Source: Gammaproteobacteria bacterium (lineage in GTDB: Bacteria > Pseudomonadota > Gammaproteobacteria > Tenderiales > Tenderiaceae). Taken from it: a stretch of 64,000 nt of DNA. The translations under genes were made by a program, and so were the position numbers. The notes below the pieces were generated by a model. It searched no databases, was not told where the DNA came from, and saw only the letters and a list, made by a program, of their open reading frames with translations. Location: NCBI GenBank assembly GCA_016200485.1, contig JACQEP010000016.1, positions 1 to 64,000 on the forward strand. Reading direction: 5' to 3'. Positions within the stretch are counted from its first letter, which is position 1; every line of letters begins with the position of its first letter. Positions 18,042 through 34,090 of this stretch are shown here, piece after piece.

Positions 18042-18092
18042 TCCCTGGATTTTCACGGGGGATCTGTAGTAAACCGAACCCAGGGACCTTTT
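18040..18092 (+). terminator. Attenuator-like hairpin in the nrdJ leader
   Basis: GGTCCCTGG (18040-18048) pairs perfectly with CCAGGGACC (18080-18088) and is followed by TTTT, across a 31-nt loop. It lies between the promoter and the start codon, where it could terminate transcription early or mask upstream sequence. No cobalamin riboswitch consensus is visible. Confidence 0.5.
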
Positions 18093-18135
18093 GGAAGCAC
18101 ACATCATTAACATGGACAGAGGGAGTAGTCGTCGC

Positions 18136-21100
18136 ATGAAGAGCGCCCAGCTGAAAGCAGTTTCCGCTGTACCCACCGAAATTACCTATCAAGCCGCATC
18201 CTTTGATATATGGGATAAAAAATACCGCCTCAAGGCCAAAAATGGTGACGTCATCGATGCCGATATCGACGGCACCTATCAGCGCGTCGCCCACGCCCTG
18301 GCCGAGGTAGAAAACACCCAGGAGCTACGCGATTACTGGCATGAGCGTTTCCTGTGGGCGTTGCGCCGTGGCGCGATCCCGGCGGGCCGCATCGTTTCCA
18401 ATGCCGGCGCACTGGAACATAAACCCGCGACCTCGACCATCAACTGCACCGTTTCCGGCACCGTCACCGATTCGATGGATGACATCCTGCAAAAGGTCCA
18501 TGAAGCCGGTCTGACACTGAAGGCAGGTTGCGTCGCGCCCGGTACGCTGGTTTACACCGAGCATGGCTTGGTACCGGCGGAACAGGCCGTGACGGAGAAG
18601 CACAACCAGATTCTGGCCTATGATCGCGATCTCAAGCGTTTCGAGATGCGCCGCATTGAACGGCATCTGACAACACACGTAGCGCACGATGAAAATATCG
18701 AAATCGTCAGCAACGGCGTATCGCTCAAGACCTCAATCAAACATCCGGTACTGGTACATCGCGATGGCAAACTGGTTTACGTGCGCGCCGATGGGGTTCG
18801 CGCCGACGATGCCCTGGTCCACCACACCTTTGATTGGACCGCCGATCATGACCATGCCTTGAGCGCATGGTTCGCCGGCGCCCATCTCGGCGATGGCAGC
18901 GCTTATGCCAGAACGATGAACTACAAATCCTCCCGCCAACAATGGGCCGAAAAGGCCAAGGCCTTCGGCAAACGGCTGACATTCAAGATCCGCGCCGCCG
19001 AGCGTGAAGTGGTGGAGCGTTACGCGGAATTTTTCCATGCCTTCTGCGGCAGCCAGGCCCAAACTGTCGCCGCTACAACCGCTAATAATACGCCGGTATG
19101 GGACTTTACCGTGTCCAGCTTCGAGGCCAGCCGCGCCGCCGAACTGATCGACCATCAGACCGGCAAGAAATCCTCGTCACTGCGGGTGCCGCGCTGGATC
19201 GCATCTCACCCTGAAAAATATTTCCTGCCCTTCCTTGCCGGCCTGATCGACACCGACGGCACCGTAAGCAAGGAACGCGGCTGCGTGACGATCGCCATGC
19301 AAAATGCGCGTTTCGCCGAAGAGCTAAAGGCATTATTGGGATTGTTCGGCGTACACGGCGCGATCACCATGCGCAAACCGCGTGCCCACGACTACCAGGG
19401 CCATATCATCCGCGACAACGGCGGCGCCATGCTAAAGATCAGCGATTCCGCTTTCCTCACCAAGATCGCAGAATTCATGGCTGACAGCGGCAAGAAATCC
19501 CGCATCCGGTGTCATGCCTCACAGGCGGGCCAATACGACCGTTACATCATGCCCGAAACCTTACGCAATGCGTTGCGTGAACTACAAACGACAGTCAATC
19601 ATCAGGAACGGCAAGCATTAGGCTTTTATCACGGTTATCACGAAGCATCCGTCATCAGTCGCGTATGGCTCGACCGCTGGGAAGCGCGCTTCCCGCAATT
19701 AAAAGAATTAATCCTGTTCACCCGCACCTTGCGCCCCGTGGAAGCGATCAACCGCAATCTGGATCTGCCCGAGACGTTCTACGATTTCACCGTTGAACGG
19801 CACAACAATTATCTGGCCGGCAACAACGGTCTGATGGTCATCCACAACTGTGGCATCGGCTATGAATTCTCCACCCTGCGCCCGAAAGGCGCCTTCGTCG
19901 CCGGCGCCGGCGCTTACACCTCGGGCCCGCTGTCGTTCATGGATATCTACGACAAGATGTGTTTCACCGTGTCCAGCGCTGGCGGCCGCCGTGGCGCGCA
20001 AATGGCAACCTTCGATGTCAGCCACCCGGACGTGATGGACTTCATCCGCGCCAAACGTGAAGACGGGCGCCTGCGTCAGTTCAACCTCAGCCTGTTGATC
20101 ACCCAGGAATTCATGGAGGCGGTGAAGAACGACGCGCAATGGCCACTGAGCTTCCCGTTGACCCAGAAAGAAGTGGGACTCGACGGCATTGACCTGACCG
20201 ACGGCGAGAAAGTGGTATGGCGCGATTGGCCGACCAAGGAAAAATACGTCACCAACAGTGAAGGCCTGGTCGCCTGCAAGATTTACAAGACGATTCGCGC
20301 CCGCCGCCTGTGGGACGTGATCATGTCTTCGACTTATGATTACGCCGAACCCGGCTTCATCCTGATCGACAAGGTCAACGAGATGAACAACAATTGGTTC
20401 TGCGAAACCATTCGCGCGACGAATCCTTGCGTAACTGCCGATACCTGGGTACACACCACTCAGGGTCCGCGACAGGTTAGCGATCTCATCGGCCAGCCTT
20501 TCGTGGCATTGGTGAATGGGCAATCGCATGCCAGCGGCGCCGAGGGCTTCTTTAAGACCGCCACCAAACCGGTAGTAAAACTGCAAACCCACGAAGGTTA
20601 CCAACTGCGCCTAACCGCCGATCATCGTGTGCGCCGCGTTATGGAATTTAGCCGTCACACCACTGAAACGGAGTGGTGCGAAGCAGGAAAACTTCAACCC
20701 GGCGACTATGTATTACTCAATGATCACCGCGCTGCTACTGCATGGACTGGTGAGTACAGCTATGAACAGGGTTATTTGCTCGGTCTGCTCATGGGTGATA
20801 GCACGCTCAAAACCGATAAAGCAGTCTTGTCCGTATGGAAACCGGCAGCTGTGGCCAACGGTGTTAGTGAACAATTGAGTGAGGGCCCACTGGCCGTGAT
20901 GGCTGAGGCACTGCGTGCTGCACAAACATTGCCGCATCGCAGCGATTTCAACGGCTGGCAAGAAATCAGCGGGCGCAATGAATACCGTCTAAGTCTGGGC
21001 GCGCTTACACAACTCGCCGAAGAAGTCGGTATGCGGCCAGGCGACAAGCGCATCACTCCAGCCCTGGAACAAGCCTCCAGCGAATGCTACCGCGGTTTCC

Positions 21101-22740
21101 TGAAAGGCTTCTTCGATACCGACGGCTCAGTGCAAGGATCGCAAACCAAAGGGGTCAGCGTGCGCCTGGCTCAATCCGATCTGCCGCGACTTGAATCTGC
21201 GCAACGCATGTTGCTGCGCCTGGGCATTGCCTCCAAGCTCTATAAGAATCGTCGCACAGGGGGCGGCAGCCTCCTACCCGATGGCAAAGGCGGCTCTGCG
21301 GAATATCAGACGCAACCACAGCACGAACTCGTCATCAGCGGCGAAAACCTGCTCCAGTTCCAGCAGCTGGTTGGCTTTGCCGATACCAGCAAAGCCTCGC
21401 GCCTGGAGCAATTGCTGGGCAGTTACAAGCGTTTGCTGAATCGCGAACGTTTTGTTGCTCGCGTCGAAAGCACTATCGCTGACGGCGTTGTCGATGTGTA
21501 TGACGTACAAGTCCCCGGTATCAATACCTTTGATGCGAATGGATTGCATGCCCACAATTGTGGCGAACAGCCATTACCGGCTTACGGCTCCTGTCTGCTT
21601 GGCTCGATCAACCTGACCAAGTTCGCGCGCGATCCATTCACCGACAAGGCACGTTTCGATTGGGATGAATTCCGCGAAGTGGTTGCCGTGTTCACCCGCA
21701 TGCTGGACAACGTTGTTGAAATCAACGGCCTGCCGCTCGAAGGTCAGCGCAATGAAATCATGCGCAAGCGCCGTCATGGCATGGGCTATCTCGGCCTCGG
21801 CTCCACCGTCACCATGCTGCGCATGCAATACGGCGATCGCGAATCGGTGCAATTCACCGAGCGCGTCACCCGCGAACTGGCGGTACAAGGCTGGCGCACG
21901 GCGCTGGATCTGGCCAAGGAAAAAGGCCCGGCACCGATCATGGACGAAGAGTTCACCGTCGATGCCGACATGCTGCGCAAACAGCCACAGATGAAGCGCG
22001 ATGGTTATAAGATCGGCGACAAGGTTAAGGGCAAGGTGTTGCACGCCAAATACAGCAATTACATGCAACGCATCGCCGAAGCCGATCCGGATCTGGTCAA
22101 CGAACTGGAAAAAGTGGGCGCCCGCTTTACCCATCACAGTTCGATTGCACCGACCGGCACCATCTCGCTGTCACTGGCCAACAACGCCAGCAACGGCATT
22201 GAGCCTTCATTCGCGCATCAATATTCGCGCAACGTGATTCGTGAAGGTAAAAAATCCAAGGAAAAGGTCGACGTCTACTCCTATGAATTGTTAGCCTACC
22301 GCGAACTGGTCAACACCAAAGCCTCGCCTTACAGCGAAGAAGCGGACGCGAAGCTGCCAGACTATTTCATCACTGCCGACGACATCAAACCCAAGGCTCA
22401 CGTTGATATTCAGGCCGCGGCGCAGAAATGGATCGATTCCTCGATCTCCAAAACCGCCAACGTGCCGACCGACTTCGCCTATGACGATTTCAAAGACATT
22501 TACCTCTACGCCTACGAACAAGGCTTGAAAGGCTGCACCACCTTCCGCTTCAATCCCGAGGCGTTCCAGGGCGTGCTGGTGAAAGATAAAGATCTGGAAA
22601 ATACTCTTTATCGCTTCACGCTTGATGACGGCGCGACCATTGAGGTCAAGGGCAATGAAGAGATCGAATACGACGGCGAAATCCACTCCGCCGCCAATCT
22701 CTACGACGCCCTCAAGGAAGGCTATTACGGCAAATTCTAA
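18136..22740 (+). CDS. nrdJ: Class II (B12-dependent) ribonucleotide reductase, large part NrdJa, with two inteins
   Basis: A 1534-residue precursor from the ATG at 18136, where GGGAG lies ten bases upstream; in-frame TTG 18091 and ATG 18112 are alternatives. Removing the two inteins (440 and 377 residues) leaves about 717 residues, the size of P. aeruginosa NrdJa. Extein landmarks are the redox Cys in STINCTVSGTVTDS, GCGIGYEFSTLRP, NPCGEQPLPAYGSCLLGSINL with the thiyl-radical Cys, and SIAPTGTISL. The enzyme makes deoxyribonucleotides using adenosylcobalamin, independent of oxygen. Both inteins interrupt core catalytic motifs, so activity depends on splicing. The C-terminal redox part is encoded separately at 22799. 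NrdR-like boxes, a DnaA box and a leader hairpin lie upstream. Confidence 0.93.
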   Translation: MKSAQLKAVSAVPTEITYQAASFDIWDKKYRLKAKNGDVIDADIDGTYQRVAHALAEVENTQELRDYWHERFLWALRRGAIPAGRIVSNAGALEHKPATSTINCTVSGTVTDSMDDILQKVHEAGLTLKAGCVAPGTLVYTEHGLVPAEQAVTEKHNQILAYDRDLKRFEMRRIERHLTTHVAHDENIEIVSNGVSLKTSIKHPVLVHRDGKLVYVRADGVRADDALVHHTFDWTADHDHALSAWFAGAHLGDGSAYARTMNYKSSRQQWAEKAKAFGKRLTFKIRAAEREVVERYAEFFHAFCGSQAQTVAATTANNTPVWDFTVSSFEASRAAELIDHQTGKKSSSLRVPRWIASHPEKYFLPFLAGLIDTDGTVSKERGCVTIAMQNARFAEELKALLGLFGVHGAITMRKPRAHDYQGHIIRDNGGAMLKISDSAFLTKIAEFMADSGKKSRIRCHASQAGQYDRYIMPETLRNALRELQTTVNHQERQALGFYHGYHEASVISRVWLDRWEARFPQLKELILFTRTLRPVEAINRNLDLPETFYDFTVERHNNYLAGNNGLMVIHNCGIGYEFSTLRPKGAFVAGAGAYTSGPLSFMDIYDKMCFTVSSAGGRRGAQMATFDVSHPDVMDFIRAKREDGRLRQFNLSLLITQEFMEAVKNDAQWPLSFPLTQKEVGLDGIDLTDGEKVVWRDWPTKEKYVTNSEGLVACKIYKTIRARRLWDVIMSSTYDYAEPGFILIDKVNEMNNNWFCETIRATNPCVTADTWVHTTQGPRQVSDLIGQPFVALVNGQSHASGAEGFFKTATKPVVKLQTHEGYQLRLTADHRVRRVMEFSRHTTETEWCEAGKLQPGDYVLLNDHRAATAWTGEYSYEQGYLLGLLMGDSTLKTDKAVLSVWKPAAVANGVSEQLSEGPLAVMAEALRAAQTLPHRSDFNGWQEISGRNEYRLSLGALTQLAEEVGMRPGDKRITPALEQASSECYRGFLKGFFDTDGSVQGSQTKGVSVRLAQSDLPRLESAQRMLLRLGIASKLYKNRRTGGGSLLPDGKGGSAEYQTQPQHELVISGENLLQFQQLVGFADTSKASRLEQLLGSYKRLLNRERFVARVESTIADGVVDVYDVQVPGINTFDANGLHAHNCGEQPLPAYGSCLLGSINLTKFARDPFTDKARFDWDEFREVVAVFTRMLDNVVEINGLPLEGQRNEIMRKRRHGMGYLGLGSTVTMLRMQYGDRESVQFTERVTRELAVQGWRTALDLAKEKGPAPIMDEEFTVDADMLRKQPQMKRDGYKIGDKVKGKVLHAKYSNYMQRIAEADPDLVNELEKVGARFTHHSSIAPTGTISLSLANNASNGIEPSFAHQYSRNVIREGKKSKEKVDVYSYELLAYRELVNTKASPYSEEADAKLPDYFITADDIKPKAHVDIQAAAQKWIDSSISKTANVPTDFAYDDFKDIYLYAYEQGLKGCTTFRFNPEAFQGVLVKDKDLENTLYRFTLDDGATIEVKGNEEIEYDGEIHSAANLYDALKEGYYGKF
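18529..19848 (+). other. Intein 1 (LAGLIDADG) in NrdJa
   Basis: A 440-residue in-frame insertion between LKAG and CGIGYEF. It begins with Cys1 (CVAPGTLVYTEHG, block A), has block B at SLKTSIKHPVLV, and ends with blocks F/G FYDFTVERHNNYLAG...VIHN followed by Cys+1. Two dodecapeptide motifs, WFAGAHLGDGSA and LPFLAGLIDTDGTV, mark a homing endonuclease with acidic residues kept in both. It therefore looks able both to splice and to home. Confidence 0.92.
20428..21558 (+). other. Intein 2 (LAGLIDADG) in NrdJa at the radical-Cys motif
   Basis: A 377-residue insertion splitting NP|CGEQPL, so the Cys+1 splice nucleophile is the catalytic thiyl-radical Cys itself. Block A is CVTADTWVHTTQG, block B LRLTADHRV, and blocks F/G VYDVQVPGINTFDANGLHAHN. 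Endonuclease motifs are YLLGLLMGDSTL and FLKGFFDTDGSV. It shows little evident similarity to intein 1, so it is a separate acquisition rather than a duplication. Confidence 0.92.
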
Positions 22741-24360: not shown

Positions 24361-24404
24361 TTTTTTGCGTTCATTCGCGTTTATTTGCGGACTATCTTTC
24401 AATC
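24361..24404. repeat. Short AT-rich intergenic repeat (TTGCGTTCATTCGCGTTTAT)
   Basis: The sequence TTGCGTTCATTCGCGTTTAT, continued by TTGCGGACTAT and TTTCAATCACCGC, recurs almost unchanged at about 27243-27289. A shorter form (TTTGCGTTTATTCGCGGAC) lies at about 34154-34172, next to the intact metallopeptidase gene. It seems to travel with the metallopeptidase fragment. Confidence 0.55.
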
Positions 24405-24660
24405 ACCGCCCACGCCACAAATACATCCAGCGCCAGACATTGAGCAGGCTCGATAACGATGCCGCCAAATAGGTGAGCGCCGCCGCACTCAACACCTGTC
24501 GCGCTGCATTTTGATCTTTATCATCGACATATTGCCCGGCGCGCAATAACGGCAAAGCACGATTGAAGCTGGCATCCAGCTCCACCGGCAACGTCACCAG
24601 ATGCACCAACACCGACAACGCCATACTCATCAATCCCAACACAAACATCAGCCCGCGTAG
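24403..24660 (-). pseudogene. 3' fragment of a zinc metallopeptidase gene
   Basis: The translated C-terminal 85 residues (SMALSVLVHLVTLPVELDAS...LLNVWRWMYLWRGR) are nearly identical to the C-terminus of the intact metallopeptidase at 33401-34090. The part upstream of about 24660 is replaced by repeat-like sequence (GTAGGGCGCAATAGCG), and the HEVGH active site is absent. This is a truncated duplicate, not a functional peptidase. Confidence 0.8.
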
Positions 24661-24921
24661 GGCGCAATAGCGTAGCGCATTGCGCCGAATGTGACCTAGC
24701 CGCTCATCCTCTCCACCCCAGTTCTTTTCCATCCGGCGCATAACGCGGCTACACCTCATGCGCCCTACATGTTAAATATTTTCGCATTGATTTGCGTTTT
24801 TCATGGATTACCCTACCTAAATAGCCATCGCCAAAATTGCAAAACGGTCGGAAATCGCCTACCTTGATTACTTGTTGTGCGGCGGAAGAACATTCGACAA
24901 CTCTCCTATGGATGCAACAAC

Positions 24922-27389: not shown

Positions 27390-28703
27390 CTACAGACGCT
27401 CTTTCCTGGCAATCCGCGAGACCTTCCATGGATTCCATCGGTCCCAATACGATACTTTGTGCAACCCTTCCATCAGATAGGCGTAGGTTCGTACCGTGCG
27501 AAGATAGATGCCATAGTAAAACGGCATCAGCGGAATGTAGAGATAAAGCGCATACTCACGCCGTCCAAACTTGTGATGCAGCAACAGTGTGGCGGTAATA
27601 AACTGAATATAGTTGGCACTCATATACAGAAACAGATTGATCAGAAAGATATATCCCAACCACTCGGCACTGAAAAACAACATCTGCACCAGATAAATCC
27701 ACCACTTGAAATCGAGAAGTAAATTGAAAAAAATATTTTCTGCGCTTGACAAGAAATTACTGAGGCGGAAATTTTTCGACGGGCGAAGAATATCAATGTG
27801 TTTACGGGTGCGAAAACGCACTAGCGATCGATCCCAGCGGTAACGCTGTTTCGCCAGCGTTCGCACCCGATCTGGAACATGGGTGTAACAGACGGCATAC
27901 GGCTGATGAGCGACTTTGAAGCCCATTTTGCGCACCTTGAGGGTAAGATCGCCGTCTAGGCCGGGACCGACATCCCAACCATAAATCCGCTCCAGGACAT
28001 CGCGCCGGAACGCGCCATGCGCACCGGCAATGATACGAAGCAGTCCAAGCGTTGAGGCAATCGTGCGTCCGACACTGATCGATTTCAGGTATTCGATTGC
28101 CTGTAACCGGGTAATGATATTGGCATCAATATTGGCGACTCGCACATCGCCGCCGACAGCTCCAACAGCGGGATCCATGATAAAGGGCAACAGGATTGTC
28201 TCAATGGCATCATCGTCCAGATATGAATCGGCATCGAGATGGATGATGTATTCTCCACGGGAATAACGCAGGGCGGTGTTGGCGGCCGAGGCTTTACCAC
28301 CGCGGACTTCATTACGGATGAAGCGTGTAATCCTGCCTTCGGACTCCAGGCGACGGCAAATGTCGGCGGTATCATCATCCGAGCCATCATCGACGATGAT
28401 TAGTTCGTAGTGTTTGTAACTTTGGCTTCGCAGCGACTCGGCAAGCGCGGGAATGTGCTTGCCCTCATTCTTGCCAGGCACGATTACCGATACCAGCGGT
28501 TGCTCGGTGAACAACACCCGCCGCGCCTGTTCGCGCCGCTCCCGTGAAAAATAATGCCGCGGCATATGCACGAGAAAAATAATGATATCGGATAACACAT
28601 AGCGCACGACATCGATCATGAAAAACGGCCAGAAGTAGGCCAGCACCTGCCAGGTGGTCAGGCTTTGCACGAACTCGATCAGACCATCAAGCAACCACAT
28701 CAT
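27390..28703 (-). CDS. Processive family 2 glycosyltransferase (exopolysaccharide synthase)
   Basis: 437 residues. Two N-terminal membrane helices (about 18-48) come before a GT2 domain with D106 (IIVDDGSDDD), DxD D157/D159 (HLDADSYLDDD), a catalytic-base region GLDGDLTLK (D250/D252) and the processive-synthase motif QRYRW (286-290). Three or four C-terminal membrane helices follow. This is the layout of PgaC/BcsA-like synthases that polymerise and extrude a polysaccharide across the inner membrane. The sugar cannot be told. It is the last gene of a tight four-gene operon and overlaps the GGDEF-like gene by 17 bp. No PilZ domain is present, so control probably comes from the neighbour at 28687. 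Confidence 0.88.
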   Translation of the reverse strand: MMWLLDGLIEFVQSLTTWQVLAYFWPFFMIDVVRYVLSDIIIFLVHMPRHYFSRERREQARRVLFTEQPLVSVIVPGKNEGKHIPALAESLRSQSYKHYELIIVDDGSDDDTADICRRLESEGRITRFIRNEVRGGKASAANTALRYSRGEYIIHLDADSYLDDDAIETILLPFIMDPAVGAVGGDVRVANIDANIITRLQAIEYLKSISVGRTIASTLGLLRIIAGAHGAFRRDVLERIYGWDVGPGLDGDLTLKVRKMGFKVAHQPYAVCYTHVPDRVRTLAKQRYRWDRSLVRFRTRKHIDILRPSKNFRLSNFLSSAENIFFNLLLDFKWWIYLVQMLFFSAEWLGYIFLINLFLYMSANYIQFITATLLLHHKFGRREYALYLYIPLMPFYYGIYLRTVRTYAYLMEGLHKVSYWDRWNPWKVSRIARKERL

Positions 28704-30099
28704 GACTCAGAAACTGCTCAAGCGCAGTTTGAGGATCGCTCACATCGGCAAGCGCATAAACCTGAAAGCGCAACCGCGGCTTGATCGATAGATTGTTTTC
28801 GAACAAAGCAATGATTCCCTGCTCGAGCCGACCGACGGCCAGCCTGGCCTGATCCATGTCGGTTTCTGTCATCACTACCAGAAATACGGTCTCGTTGCGC
28901 GCAGTGATAACATCGGAGCGGCGTAATATGGATTTAAATATCGCGCTCAACTCCATGAAAACATCGCGTGCACGTTTACCGAGCTTGATATACAGCGCAT
29001 CAAGACCACTGAATTCGAACAACACCAATGTGCTGCTGGATTTTTTGTAACGGCGGATGCGTTCCACCTCAATCCGGCAAAAATCCATGAAGCTGACGAA
29101 TGATGCCAGCTTCAGCTCGCTGTCGAAGATATTGGCGAACAGGCTCTCCATCCCGTAACGGGCGGCATTCTCGCCGAGCGATGAGACGGAGTAGCTCTGG
29201 ATGATGCGTATCAGTTGATTCTCCGGCGCCACACTCCGGCCACAGTTGTAGCACATGGACATGACGCGCGGGTCCTGAAACGCATGAGTGCATTGGTTAC
29301 AGTGATAAACCAATGAGGGTTTGTCATAGTCCACCCCAATATGCCGGAGTAATTGCTCACACTTCGGACAGACCATGGTTTCGCCACGCTTGAACTCGGA
29401 AAGCTCACCGGTATAAGCACACTTGAAGTGGTGTACCAGTTCATCGAGCTTCAGATCGGTGGCGCCGCAATGAGGACAGGCCTCGGTGAAATTGAGGAAA
29501 GCACAGTCACAGTGGCTGCAAAAATGGGCGCGGGCAAAGAATTCGCCATGCAACAGGCGCTGGTCTTGAAGATATTCCAGTGTCTGCAGCACACCGGCAT
29601 CGTTGTGATCAAACAATGGCTCGATCAGCGGATAAACATAGCCGGCAGAGGCCGAGGCCGTCGCCACCGGCACAAAGGGCGTCCCGCGACTGGCGATCAT
29701 GCGCAACACCTTGAAAGCGATATTGACATCGGCACTGCCACCATCATGGCCGCTGCCATCGATCCAGCTCAGGACCGGCTCAAATTGCGATACCAGTTCT
29801 CCAGCCGCCTTCTGGTCGAAGCTGTCGCGCGGCAGATAAACATCGGCAAAGCGATGCACCTTGCCCCCATAGACCAACCCCTTGTGCAAACCGACAATCG
29901 GCAACAGATAAAGCGCAGGATGATGACTTTGACGCACAGCGCGTATGATCGCTTCAGCTTGTTGCGGCTGATCGGTATCGATTACCAGAAAGGCATACTG
30001 CCAGGGATCGGTCTTCATCAGCTCTGCCAGGGTCACCGACATTAAAAAGGCGGGGCCCACTTGCCCGGCATCGAATGCCACAAACCAAGGTTGTCTCAT
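28687..30099 (-). CDS. Zinc-ribbon (TackOD1-like) protein with degenerate GGDEF domain and intact I-site
   Basis: 470 residues. The N-terminal third (1-180) is a Rossmann/receiver-like region. The centre (about 190-290) has repeated CxxC pairs (CSHCDC, CPHC, CPKC, CNQC, CYNC), like the TackOD1 output domain. The C-terminal third is GGDEF-like, but NETVF (402-406) replaces GGDEF, so it should not make c-di-GMP. The inhibitory-site motif RRSD is kept at 393-396 with the exact five-residue spacing, so it probably binds c-di-GMP, much as PelD does for Pel. It lies between the adaptor and synthase genes, overlapping both, and is a likely allosteric switch for the synthase. Gene-level function is inference. 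Confidence 0.8.
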   Translation of the reverse strand: MRQPWFVAFDAGQVGPAFLMSVTLAELMKTDPWQYAFLVIDTDQPQQAEAIIRAVRQSHHPALYLLPIVGLHKGLVYGGKVHRFADVYLPRDSFDQKAAGELVSQFEPVLSWIDGSGHDGGSADVNIAFKVLRMIASRGTPFVPVATASASAGYVYPLIEPLFDHNDAGVLQTLEYLQDQRLLHGEFFARAHFCSHCDCAFLNFTEACPHCGATDLKLDELVHHFKCAYTGELSEFKRGETMVCPKCEQLLRHIGVDYDKPSLVYHCNQCTHAFQDPRVMSMCYNCGRSVAPENQLIRIIQSYSVSSLGENAARYGMESLFANIFDSELKLASFVSFMDFCRIEVERIRRYKKSSSTLVLFEFSGLDALYIKLGKRARDVFMELSAIFKSILRRSDVITARNETVFLVVMTETDMDQARLAVGRLEQGIIALFENNLSIKPRLRFQVYALADVSDPQTALEQFLSHDVVA

Positions 30100-31103
30100 T
30101 ATCGGGTACCTCTCACACGCACCGCCATCCGGTCATAACGCGCCCATACTGCTGTGTCGGCCTGATTCACAGGCGTAATGCGTGCAATGATTTTGCCTGC
30201 GGGTTCGCCATAACCCATACCGGAATTCTCCGGCAGACGGCTGGCGGCCGAACGCACGGACTCCACCCGCCCCTCACTCTCCGTGCCGTCCGAGAAATAG
30301 ACCTTCAATACCTTGCCGGCCGTCACCAAGTCGAGCCTGTCCTGATCGAAATAAACGTCGATGAATACCGGGGCGTGATCACTCACCACATCAACGACAG
30401 CATCACCCCTGCCCACCACTTCATAACGATTGCGCAAGACAGCGCGCACTCGGCCCGCCAGCGGAGCTACCAACACTTCGGGCTGACAAGCCCCGGCTGC
30501 GATTACCCCATCGCGATTCCGCTGCGGCAGCGTACGTCCGCCTGACTGACGGTGCAACAGCCCCAACTCGCCGCGAACACGCGCGATCTTTAGCTTGAGG
30601 ATTTCGGCCTGTTTCTGATTCTGTTCATAGCGCCTCAGATATTCCCCATCGACTTCAAGCGCACGCCGTACACCCTCGTCCACCGGCTGCGGCGCCACCA
30701 ATTTCAGCTCGCCCAATAATGCATCAAGCTCGATCTGCTTACGCTGCGCTTCAAAATGCAGCTGCTCGCCGCGGCTGTCCATCACCGGCGAGGCAACATC
30801 ACTGCAACCCCGAGTTGGCTCGATAACGGCCAGCCGGGTACCGGCAGCCACATGCTGCCCCGACTGGACACCGAGTTCGGCAATGCGCCCACCAACGCTG
30901 GCACGGATCATAATACGCGGGCTATCGACATAGCCGCGTCCGCTAAATTGCCATATCCACATCACTCCGAGATAACCGATATACAGCACCAGCGAGCTGA
31001 TGAACAACAGATAGAGCCAGGAGGTGACGCGCGATCCCGGCGTGCGTTTCGGCGCACCTTCCGGCAGCCCTGTCATATAACTTGTTCGGTTGCGCAGTCT
31101 CAT
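30099..31103 (-). CDS. HlyD-family membrane fusion protein of the polysaccharide operon
   Basis: 334 residues. A single membrane helix (about 28-52, WLYLLFISSLVLYIGYLGVMWIWQF) is followed by a lipoyl half-domain (SVGGRIAELGVQSGQHVAAG), a helical hairpin (about 125-190) and a C-terminal barrel (LAGRVRAVLRNRYEVVGRGD ... VFIDVYFDQDRLD). The fold is that of periplasmic adaptors, including Alg44-type polysaccharide adaptors. It would bridge the synthase and the TolC-like channel encoded directly upstream. It shares one base with the next gene, ending at 30099 where that gene begins. Confidence 0.85.
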   Translation of the reverse strand: MRLRNRTSYMTGLPEGAPKRTPGSRVTSWLYLLFISSLVLYIGYLGVMWIWQFSGRGYVDSPRIMIRASVGGRIAELGVQSGQHVAAGTRLAVIEPTRGCSDVASPVMDSRGEQLHFEAQRKQIELDALLGELKLVAPQPVDEGVRRALEVDGEYLRRYEQNQKQAEILKLKIARVRGELGLLHRQSGGRTLPQRNRDGVIAAGACQPEVLVAPLAGRVRAVLRNRYEVVGRGDAVVDVVSDHAPVFIDVYFDQDRLDLVTAGKVLKVYFSDGTESEGRVESVRSAASRLPENSGMGYGEPAGKIIARITPVNQADTAVWARYDRMAVRVRGTR

Positions 31104-31117
31104 GCCACATGCCTTCG

Positions 31118-33130
31118 CTAGCGGATAAAATCAGTCAATTGGTGCAGCGCAAATCGCCTGACCCCCAATTGTGCACTCAATTGTTCCATGGTGTTCTCCA
31201 ACGCCCACTCGTCACTGAAATCCTTGACGCTTAGGGCAACCACCGCCTTGTCGCGACCTATCTTCGCCAGTATCACCTCAAGACGTCGTTGCTGCTGTGG
31301 TAATGATCGATTTTCATACGACATGATGTAAATATGATCGACCAGGCTTGCGACGTTGGCATAGAATTCCGGTGGCCAGGTCTGCGGCACCGAGACGCTG
31401 AGCGGATTATTCCCAATCACTTCCCGTACTGCCTTGAGCATCGCCAGATAATGGTCGAGATAGGTCTGACGATCCGCGTTATAACCCGGCAACACATGAG
31501 GTTCGATGTCGAGGTGAATCGCACTACCTTCCGCCGTCAGTTCAAGCGCTTGCCGCACCACCTCTGCCCGCCGCTCGGGGAATATCCACTCATTGCTGCC
31601 TGCCAGCAGACTCTCCACTGCAATGCCTTTTTCCTGCGCCGCGCTCACGAACGCCTTGCGCTTTGCCGCATCGATCTTCCTGCCCGCCACCAGCACCACT
31701 CGTTCGATGCTCTTGACATGAAGCATTTCCAACAGCACACGATTATCGGTACGGTTAAAAAACTCAGACCAAAGATAAGCGGCTCGCTCACCGACACGGG
31801 CACGGTAATGCTCATCGGGCAACGGCACCTCCGCGATATATTCCGGACGATAGTCGATCCCGGCAGCAGCAAGCAGATCGGAGACACGGAAATAGAGCTC
31901 CTGTTTGCTTCGTACCAGCTCTATACTTTCATCAAGCAGCGCACGCACTCGCAGCACGCCTTCGGCAACCTCGATCCGGTCCCCCAGAGCATGCTGCATC
32001 ATCACACGCCTTACACGCTCACTGGCACCAAGATAACGATAGTGTTGGCGCACGGCGCGCTGCTGTTGTTCACGCACACGCTCATAGGCATCGCGAGTCC
32101 GCGCCAGGCGCTGCCAGGACTCCAATTTGCCCTGCTGCTGCAACTCACGCAGTTCAAAAGATAGCCTGCGATCGCTTTGTTCCCGATCCAGCGGCACAGT
32201 GAAACGCAGACCCAGCGAGGCATAGTTATCGCCGTTGCCGGAAAACGTATCAAGTTCCTTGCGCACATACAGCTGCAAACGATCCTGATAGCGTGCACCC
32301 TCTCGTGTCCGGGCGATTTCATTGTGTAATTGTGGCGCTTCATCGTTTCCGGCGCGCCGCTCCATCTCCGCCAGCACTGTCGCCATCTGCACCCCAATCA
32401 GGGGCAGATGGATCGCCTGCCCGCCCCCAACGACACGCAAATGCTCCAGCTCCATACGCAACATCACCTGTTCCGACTCGGCGGCAAAAGCATCTTCCAG
32501 ATTACTCCATCCCCTGAAATAGGCACGCCGCTCGATACGGCCAGCCACATCCATCAACGACTGCTTAAGCTCCAGCAAACCGATTTTCATGCCGGTAAAC
32601 GCCTCGACAGACAACCGATCGCGACGACATTGATTTTGTTCCTCAGCCTGCTCACGCTGTTTCTGCAACTCCAGCATGCGTCGTTTGTTGTCCAGCGCAC
32701 GCGCTTGATCGCGATATTCCAAATAACCATTACGCAACACATCCCAGTCCAGCTCGAGATAGGCGCTGGACTCGCCGGCATCGTCAAGAAGGGTGCGATT
32801 GGCATAACCGCCGCGCAAACTCAAAGCCGTGCGTTTCTCCAGCTGGCGGGAATCAAAACTTAATTGCTCATCGCGTATTTCTGCCAGCGTTTGCCGGCCT
32901 GGTTCACAAGGCCGGGATAACATGTGGTGTCCGGCCTCAAGGGACTGCGGTACCTGCGCCAGCTGTTGCAGCCGCTGCGTGATGGTCTCTAACTGACTCC
33001 AGACCTGATCCGCTTCGGTGGCATCCATGGGCGCAGCGGCAATCGCCTCAGCGGATTCAGCATATGGTGGCGCTGGCAACATGAGCAGCCAGGCTAGCAA
33101 CACCATTACACTACGCCTATCCGTTTGCAT
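31118..33130 (-). CDS. TolC-like outer-membrane channel fused to a TIM-barrel (glycosidase-like) domain
   Basis: 670 residues. Signal peptide at about 1-24 (VMVLLAWLLMLPAPPYAES). Residues about 40-420 have the repeated long helices and short beta strands of outer-membrane efflux proteins (TALSLRGGYANRTLLDD, LQLYVRKELDTFSGNGDNYASLGLRF). Residues about 430-670 form a TIM-barrel-like domain with LDIEP at 540-544 (D541, E543) and DHIYIMSYENR, reminiscent of GH18-type active sites. I know of no standard system with these two parts in one chain. It is the first gene of the operon. A plausible role is an export channel with a periplasmic polysaccharide-processing domain. Confidence 0.75.
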   Translation of the reverse strand: MQTDRRSVMVLLAWLLMLPAPPYAESAEAIAAAPMDATEADQVWSQLETITQRLQQLAQVPQSLEAGHHMLSRPCEPGRQTLAEIRDEQLSFDSRQLEKRTALSLRGGYANRTLLDDAGESSAYLELDWDVLRNGYLEYRDQARALDNKRRMLELQKQREQAEEQNQCRRDRLSVEAFTGMKIGLLELKQSLMDVAGRIERRAYFRGWSNLEDAFAAESEQVMLRMELEHLRVVGGGQAIHLPLIGVQMATVLAEMERRAGNDEAPQLHNEIARTREGARYQDRLQLYVRKELDTFSGNGDNYASLGLRFTVPLDREQSDRRLSFELRELQQQGKLESWQRLARTRDAYERVREQQQRAVRQHYRYLGASERVRRVMMQHALGDRIEVAEGVLRVRALLDESIELVRSKQELYFRVSDLLAAAGIDYRPEYIAEVPLPDEHYRARVGERAAYLWSEFFNRTDNRVLLEMLHVKSIERVVLVAGRKIDAAKRKAFVSAAQEKGIAVESLLAGSNEWIFPERRAEVVRQALELTAEGSAIHLDIEPHVLPGYNADRQTYLDHYLAMLKAVREVIGNNPLSVSVPQTWPPEFYANVASLVDHIYIMSYENRSLPQQQRRLEVILAKIGRDKAVVALSVKDFSDEWALENTMEQLSAQLGVRRFALHQLTDFIR

Positions 33131-33400: not shown

Positions 33401-34090
33401 TCAACCACGTCCCCGCCACAACGACATCCACCGCCAGACATTGAGCAGACTCGCCAGCGATGCCGCGAGATAGGTAAGCGCCGCGGCGCGCAGCACTTGC
33501 TGTGCCGCGACTTGATCTTGTTCATCGAGATATTGCCCGGCTTGCAATAATGGCAAGGCGCGATTGAAGCTGGCATCGAGCTCCACGGGCAACGTCACCA
33601 GATGCACCAATACTGACAAGGCCATGCCCGCCAAACCCAGCACGAACATGACCATCGCTGCACGTGGTGAACGGGCCAATAATGTGATCACCGGCATCAA
33701 CACTATCATTCCCGAGCCAAAGCGCTCCGCTTGTTGCGCAGCGCTGACCAACTGTGAACGCCAACGCAAAGGTGCATAATCCAGCGCATCCTGAATCGCA
33801 TGCCCGACCTCATGGGCCGCCACTGCGATTGCAGTCAATGATTTACCGTTGAAATGTTCTGCTGACAAACGAACGATTTTAGCAGTCGGATCATAATGAT
33901 CGCCCTGCTCGGCGATTTCGACACGCACTGCATTTAATTCAAACTTATCCAATAAGTGCCGCGCCAGTTCGGCACCGGTGCCGGGATAATCAGTCCGTGG
34001 TGCTGAGTGGCGTTGCATCACTCGCCGCGCCCACCACTGTGGCGCGAACAGAGCACCCAACAAGATAATTACGAGCAGGGCGAGATACAT
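33401..34090 (-). CDS. Neutral zinc metallopeptidase (YugP/Zn_peptidase_2 family)
   Basis: 229 residues. An N-terminal membrane helix (2-20) is followed by the zinc site HEVGH (H93, E94, H97), and two or three more hydrophobic helices lie at about 125-170 and 205-225. It belongs to the membrane-bound YugP-like metallopeptidases, whose substrates are unknown. A truncated second copy of its 3' third lies at 24403-24660. It is monocistronic; palindrome copy 3 lies just upstream of its start. Confidence 0.9.
   Translation of the reverse strand: MYLALLVIILLGALFAPQWWARRVMQRHSAPRTDYPGTGAELARHLLDKFELNAVRVEIAEQGDHYDPTAKIVRLSAEHFNGKSLTAIAVAAHEVGHAIQDALDYAPLRWRSQLVSAAQQAERFGSGMIVLMPVITLLARSPRAAMVMFVLGLAGMALSVLVHLVTLPVELDASFNRALPLLQAGQYLDEQDQVAAQQVLRAAALTYLAASLASLLNVWRWMSLWRGRG

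Follow-up and report, generated by a model that had tools for sequence, protein, structure and literature searches.

Does a compact operon in a gammaproteobacterial genome encode a self-contained, c-di-GMP-gated machine that makes and exports a polysaccharide and, if so, does it belong to any of the named secretion systems? The question concerns four genes in a contig stretch of 64 000 nucleotides, hereafter called the window, for which an earlier note based on the letters alone had proposed such a function.

The operon and its surroundings

The four ORFs occupy positions 27390–33130 of the window, all on the minus strand, in the order C, A, R, S, exactly where the earlier note had placed them. 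C (31118–33130, 670 amino acids) is a predicted TolC-like outer-membrane channel with a C-terminal TIM barrel, A (30099–31103, 334 amino acids) is an HlyD-type membrane-fusion adaptor, R (28687–30099, 470 amino acids) is a putative cytoplasmic regulator, and S (27390–28703, 437 amino acids) is a processive family-2 glycosyltransferase (GT2). The domain assignments made at that time were borne out by profile matches for S (PF00535, 1e-30), A (HlyD_3, 1.6e-13) and R (TackOD1, PF18551, 8.8e-51), and by fold for C. The tight spacing, put at 14 bp or less or overlap, was measured as a 14 bp gap between A and C, an overlap of 1 bp between R and A and an overlap of 17 bp between S and R. A search of the window for known RNAs, including c-di-GMP riboswitches, yielded nothing above the Rfam thresholds, and a promoter scan returned motifs no commoner than in shuffled sequence.

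A Zn_peptidase_2 protein is encoded just upstream of the operon (33401–34090, minus strand), and a 118-amino-acid fragment that repeats its C-terminal part lies at 24403–24759 (minus strand). Recent insertion of the operon between the copies of a direct repeat (24407/33408, 242 bp, 9001 bp apart) was considered and ruled out because their identity, 82%, is too low for a fresh event. Elsewhere in the window, the translation of a 1549-amino-acid ORF (18091–22740, plus strand) resembles the large chain of a ribonucleotide reductase interrupted by two intein-like inserts.

Conservation and spread of the gene set

With R as the query against 84 980 species, 336 relatives were detected and the best 80 were analyzed. 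Among these 80 loci, which were picked by similarity to R, so that the result applies where R is close and not to every TackOD1 gene, C, A, R and S occur together in 71, and the remaining nine are truncated by a contig end at the expected place of the missing gene or genes. Chance grouping of the four genes is therefore excluded, and the co-occurrence on which the initial proposal hinged is found across phyla, the relatives of R coming from Gammaproteobacteria, Desulfo-lineages, Acidobacteria, Bacteroidota, KSB1 and others. In the same set of 80, the gene order is C-A-R-S in 64 loci, R-S-C-A in six (KSB1, Calditrichaeota and others) and A-R-S-C in one; the flanking genes vary from locus to locus. 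Two loci contain TackOD1-GGDEF genes without an adjoining GT2 gene. TackOD1 itself is rare, exceeding the cut-off in 18 of the 369 sampled genomes of the window's class, and relatives of R (E 1e-20 or better) are present in 15 of 398 genomes of its phylum.

A more distant form of the locus consists of R-S-A, with or without C, and several gammaproteobacterial and alphaproteobacterial relatives have R-S-A without C beside them. Judging from these loci, C would not be universally needed, and the description of the machine as self-contained holds for the operon in the window but not for the many relatives that possess the R, S, A core and lack C. In Methylocystis, one gene next to R and S encodes a TolC-family protein (OEP, 7.7e-47) and another the barrel; in two Desulfurellales the barrel likewise has a gene of its own, located after S. 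Such split and fused versions would fit a single machine with fusible parts.

In Thiodiazotropha and its relatives (three loci), an extra HlyD-like gene and a gene for a 1039-amino-acid protein, possibly an RND pump, precede the operon. R and S are also found on a 29-kb plasmid of Aeromonas caviae typed as mobilizable (pKAM345_3; locus L137, 5611–7971). None of the phage records matched R, and no close copy of the operon DNA was found among plasmids.

The channel/barrel protein

Taken alone, the C protein of the window has no Pfam match. Its AlphaFold model, built from an alignment of 46 sequences, has a mean pLDDT of 87, and in a fold comparison its first two thirds match the structures of TolC, OprM and VceC (best E 7.5e-9). 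The TolC-like part (residues 37–423; 31862–33022, minus strand) is modeled as two beta hairpins and two long helical hairpins, and a GH18-like, eight-strand TIM barrel spans residues 448–662 (31145–31789, minus strand), with profile matches to 10yv (7.5e-10) and, weakly, to YaaH and a chitinase. Among the 46 homologues, 16 match OEP and five match Glyco_hydro_18 (PF00704) in Pfam, in agreement with the TolC/TIM-barrel reading already given in the earlier note.

The characteristic motifs of GH18 are DxDxE and MxY. At the position of the catalytic DxDxE, C has HxDxE instead (H539-L-D541-I-E543; 31502–31516, minus strand), and H539, D541, E543, P544, M603 and Y605 are kept in at least 90% of the 46 homologues. 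The barrel thus appears to be related to GH18 without being a standard member, and, given the substituted motif, its catalytic activity is uncertain. A stand-alone barrel protein encoded on a Methylocystis plasmid (locus L139, 9357–10301) has DGLHFDVEP at the motif position, apparently a step between DGxDxDxE of GH18 and HxDxE of C.

The target of the barrel could be peptidoglycan, in which case it would open the cell wall for the HlyD/TolC conduit while S makes an ordinary exopolysaccharide. YaaH, one of the closest weak profile matches, is a spore cell-wall protein, the fold matches include Cwp19, and two C homologues contain LysM domains. Typical TolC/HlyD systems are, however, generally known to function without a built-in wall hydrolase, and in some relatives the barrel is encoded separately, so this possibility deserves attention but appears distinctly less plausible than action of the barrel on the secreted chain.

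The synthase, the adaptor and the polymer

The motifs D157xD159, D250xD252 and Q286xxRW290 of S are invariant in a 33-row alignment; the last of these (Q286-R-Y-R-W290; 27834–27848, minus strand) is the QxxRW motif of processive synthases. The solved structures related to S include chondroitin, hyaluronan and chitin synthases, and the best NCBIfam match is PgaC/IcaA (173.4 bits, 7.2e-51; cut-off 422.3). A matches HlyD_3 with 51.8 bits against a cut-off of 22.2 and, by hydropathy, has a single N-terminal transmembrane helix (residues 26–51).

Because S is similar to PgaC and chitin synthases and the barrel of C is GH18-like, and GH18 relatives act on N-acetylhexosamine polymers, the product of S might contain N-acetylhexosamine, a conjecture to which we assign a little less than an even chance. 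On an Alisedimentitalea plasmid (locus L138, 5986–10640), genes for a TackOD1-only regulator, GT2, HlyD and galE follow one another, and galE may hint at Gal or GalNAc as the substrate there.

The PgaC/IcaA match (7.2e-51) could also mean that the operon encodes a divergent PNAG (Pga-like) system with different export parts. With a score of 173 against a cut-off of 422, and with a conserved unit that includes neither PgaA nor the PgaB deacetylase nor PgaD, such an origin is unlikely. Still less credible is the export of something other than free polysaccharide, for example a glycolipid: HlyD/TolC systems are generally known to carry many substrates, but the motifs of S are those of a processive enzyme, without exception in the alignment, and the unit encodes neither a lipid carrier nor an ATPase. 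Secretion of a polysaccharide remains the preferred reading.

The regulator

R consists of an N-terminal alpha/beta domain, TackOD1 zinc ribbons and a degenerate GGDEF domain (AlphaFold model pLDDT 88), and hydropathy analysis reveals no hydrophobic segment. The TackOD1 domain (residues 127–305; 29185–29721, minus strand) scores 172.6 bits against a cut-off of 32 and contains eleven cysteines and one histidine that are likely zinc ligands; the cysteine pairs are conserved among the relatives, and R has every cysteine. The ‘zinc-ribbon' recognized initially is therefore present and can be specified as PF18551, an archaeal and bacterial output domain whose function is obscure (PMC5847659).

The second domain (approximately residues 320–467; 28699–29142, minus strand) scores 16.2 bits for GGDEF in Pfam, under the cut-off of 23.8, but the R family profile matches solved diguanylate cyclases (3ign, 2.1e-13) and the fold of the model agrees, which secures its identification as a degenerate GGDEF domain. 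The GG(D/E)EF active site reads NETVF in R and is degenerate in the relatives examined. RefSeq labels plasmid-borne homologues of R as ‘diguanylate cyclase', and an active enzyme would raise c-di-GMP locally rather than sense it; given that the members examined have no GG(D/E)EF motif and that conservation is concentrated at the I-site, not at the active site, this role is highly improbable.

A TackOD1 protein encoded on a Palleronia plasmid (locus L144, 4134–5831), with a GT2 gene directly after it, has a receiver domain and no GGDEF match; the receiver domain appears to be an alternative input to the same TackOD1 module.

The I-site and c-di-GMP gating

The I-site of R is the motif R393-R-S-D396 (28912–28923, minus strand). 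R393 and D396 of this RxxD motif are invariant in all 39 non-Bacteroidota proteins, and Arg393 is missing in 44 of the 51 Bacteroidota proteins, which form one group in the R tree, the tie between the I-site and c-di-GMP being essentially a single evolutionary contrast rather than 44 independent ones. R424, 31 residues away from R393, drops from a frequency of 0.95 outside Bacteroidota to 0.02 inside. There are 23 columns of R that are at least 97% conserved outside Bacteroidota; 21 of these stay at least 92% conserved inside, and only R350 and R393 are lost. Within the Bacteroidota group, R350, R393 and R424 vary freely and D396 is mostly kept. In the case of PelD, c-di-GMP binding and pellicle formation both depend on each of the residues R367, D370 and R402 (PMC2170427), whose equivalents in Bacillus cereus are R363, D366 and R395 (PMC7112168).

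True GGDEF proteins above the cut-off were found in all 14 non-Bacteroidota genomes and in none of the 36 Bacteroidota genomes, many of the latter being metagenome-assembled and possibly incomplete, and four of them belonging to named cultured strains (two of Prolixibacter, one each of Roseivirga and Crocinitomix). The I-site pattern and the distribution of diguanylate cyclases together support R as a putative PelD-like c-di-GMP receptor and thus lend independent support to the c-di-GMP gating that the earlier note had suggested. Our reading is that in Bacteroidota the constraint on these arginines was lost after the loss of the signal.

The GGDEF-like domain might instead be a structural dimerization module and the arginine pattern a meaningless drift of one lineage. 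The Bacteroidota retain the domain despite the apparent lack of diguanylate cyclases in their genomes, and their R proteins are a single clade, as such a scenario would have it; lineage drift, however, should not single out the I-site arginines while sparing 21 of 23 equally conserved columns, so that on balance this explanation seems improbable.

A putative secretion machine

Gene content, conservation, the folds of C and R, the motifs and the tie between the I-site and the c-di-GMP genes are the direct results behind the functional prediction. On this basis, the operon probably encodes a c-di-GMP-gated, synthase-dependent complex for the synthesis and secretion of a polysaccharide; complex formation, the direction of the regulation, polymerization, export and trimming are the parts that we infer. 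In the predicted mechanism, S, at the inner membrane, would build the chain from a nucleotide sugar and feed it into the periplasm, with A as the bridge from S to C. The exit through the outer membrane would be formed by C, whose GH18-like barrel, predicted to face the periplasm or the mouth of the channel, would clip or tailor the chain. R would bind c-di-GMP at the RxxD I-site and activate S from the cytoplasm, in the manner of PelD in the Pel system.

A broader generalization, which we favor only slightly over its negation, is that these loci represent an unnamed class crossing phylum boundaries, in which TackOD1, as the regulatory subunit, connects the GT2 synthase with the HlyD conduit and has an exchangeable input domain. 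In most lineages this would be a dead GGDEF domain that binds c-di-GMP, in Palleronia a receiver domain and in Bacteroidota, which would operate the machine without c-di-GMP, either a signal-free relic or a site for a new ligand. The operon type is apparently a widespread, unnamed variant of synthase-dependent polysaccharide secretion, and in the plasmid records examined its genes are annotated as ‘diguanylate cyclase', ‘glycosyltransferase', ‘HlyD family efflux transporter' and ‘hypothetical protein'. If the prediction is correct, a matrix-polymer system present in many phyla has gone unnamed, the functionally obscure TackOD1 domain gains a concrete role open to testing, the Bacteroidota provide a natural experiment on the evolution of a c-di-GMP receptor once its signal disappears, and the channel-hydrolase fusion lends itself to a clear-cut test of whether polysaccharides leave the cell via a TolC-type conduit.

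Comparison with known systems

No named polysaccharide system with this list of parts was found in Pfam, NCBIfam or the mostly open-access literature searched, which agrees with the initial impression that no standard system has this composition. PgaABCD provides the NCBIfam model closest to S, yet the score is far under the cut-off, and the conserved unit, limited to four genes, includes no PgaA, PgaB or PgaD. S is not a BcsA-type synthase (27.6 bits for CelA on S against 699.1), the BcsB family has no match among the four proteins, and none of them matches PilZ, the domain that Alg44 of the alginate system combines with HlyD. In two relatives, both with a genome of about 2.1 Mb, a PAS-GGDEF-EAL gene comes after R-S-A, and we take these loci to be a possible match to the Francisella novicida cluster FTN_0451-0456. 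A review ties the c-di-GMP genes of this cluster to biofilm (PMC3952080). The sfz/sfb stalk-formation genes of iron-oxidizing bacteria, likewise an uncharacterized GT2-based export cluster with a hydrolase, were ruled out because the part lists differ: they encode BcsB-like and EpsE-N-GT2 fusion proteins and GH10, and HlyD and TolC go unmentioned (PMC8250860).

Compared with TackOD1 proteins elsewhere, R is distinguished by its tie to a GT2/HlyD pair. At the sequence level it has the receptor features of the Pel type, a degenerate GGDEF domain with an RxxD I-site, but it is soluble and contains TackOD1, whereas PelD combines a GAF domain with membrane helices; S is a PF00535 GT2 rather than a PelF-type (GT4) synthase, and PelB, PelC, PelE and PelG are absent. 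The shared traits extend to the downstream arginine, the setting in an exopolysaccharide operon and, if the barrel of C is active, the presence of a hydrolase activity (PMC2170427, PMC7112168). The BgsBA system differs in that the synthase itself binds c-di-GMP. It has an HlyD-like partner, BgsB, and we know of no TackOD1 protein or channel/barrel fusion in it. The GT2 synthase of this Sinorhizobium system, which produces mixed-linkage beta-glucan, is activated by c-di-GMP (PMC5567048). For cyanobacterial cellulose, an XcsAB-TolC conduit of GT2, HlyD and TolC, with an endoglucanase, has been proposed, export of polysaccharides by a TolC-like channel being so far no more than a model in cyanobacteria (PMC12430437); there, the cellulose synthase bears PilZ, TolC is encoded outside the operon and the hydrolase is separate. 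The nearest functional comparisons are therefore PelD for the gating, BgsBA for the pairing of a GT2 with an HlyD-like partner, and XcsAB-TolC for the route of export.
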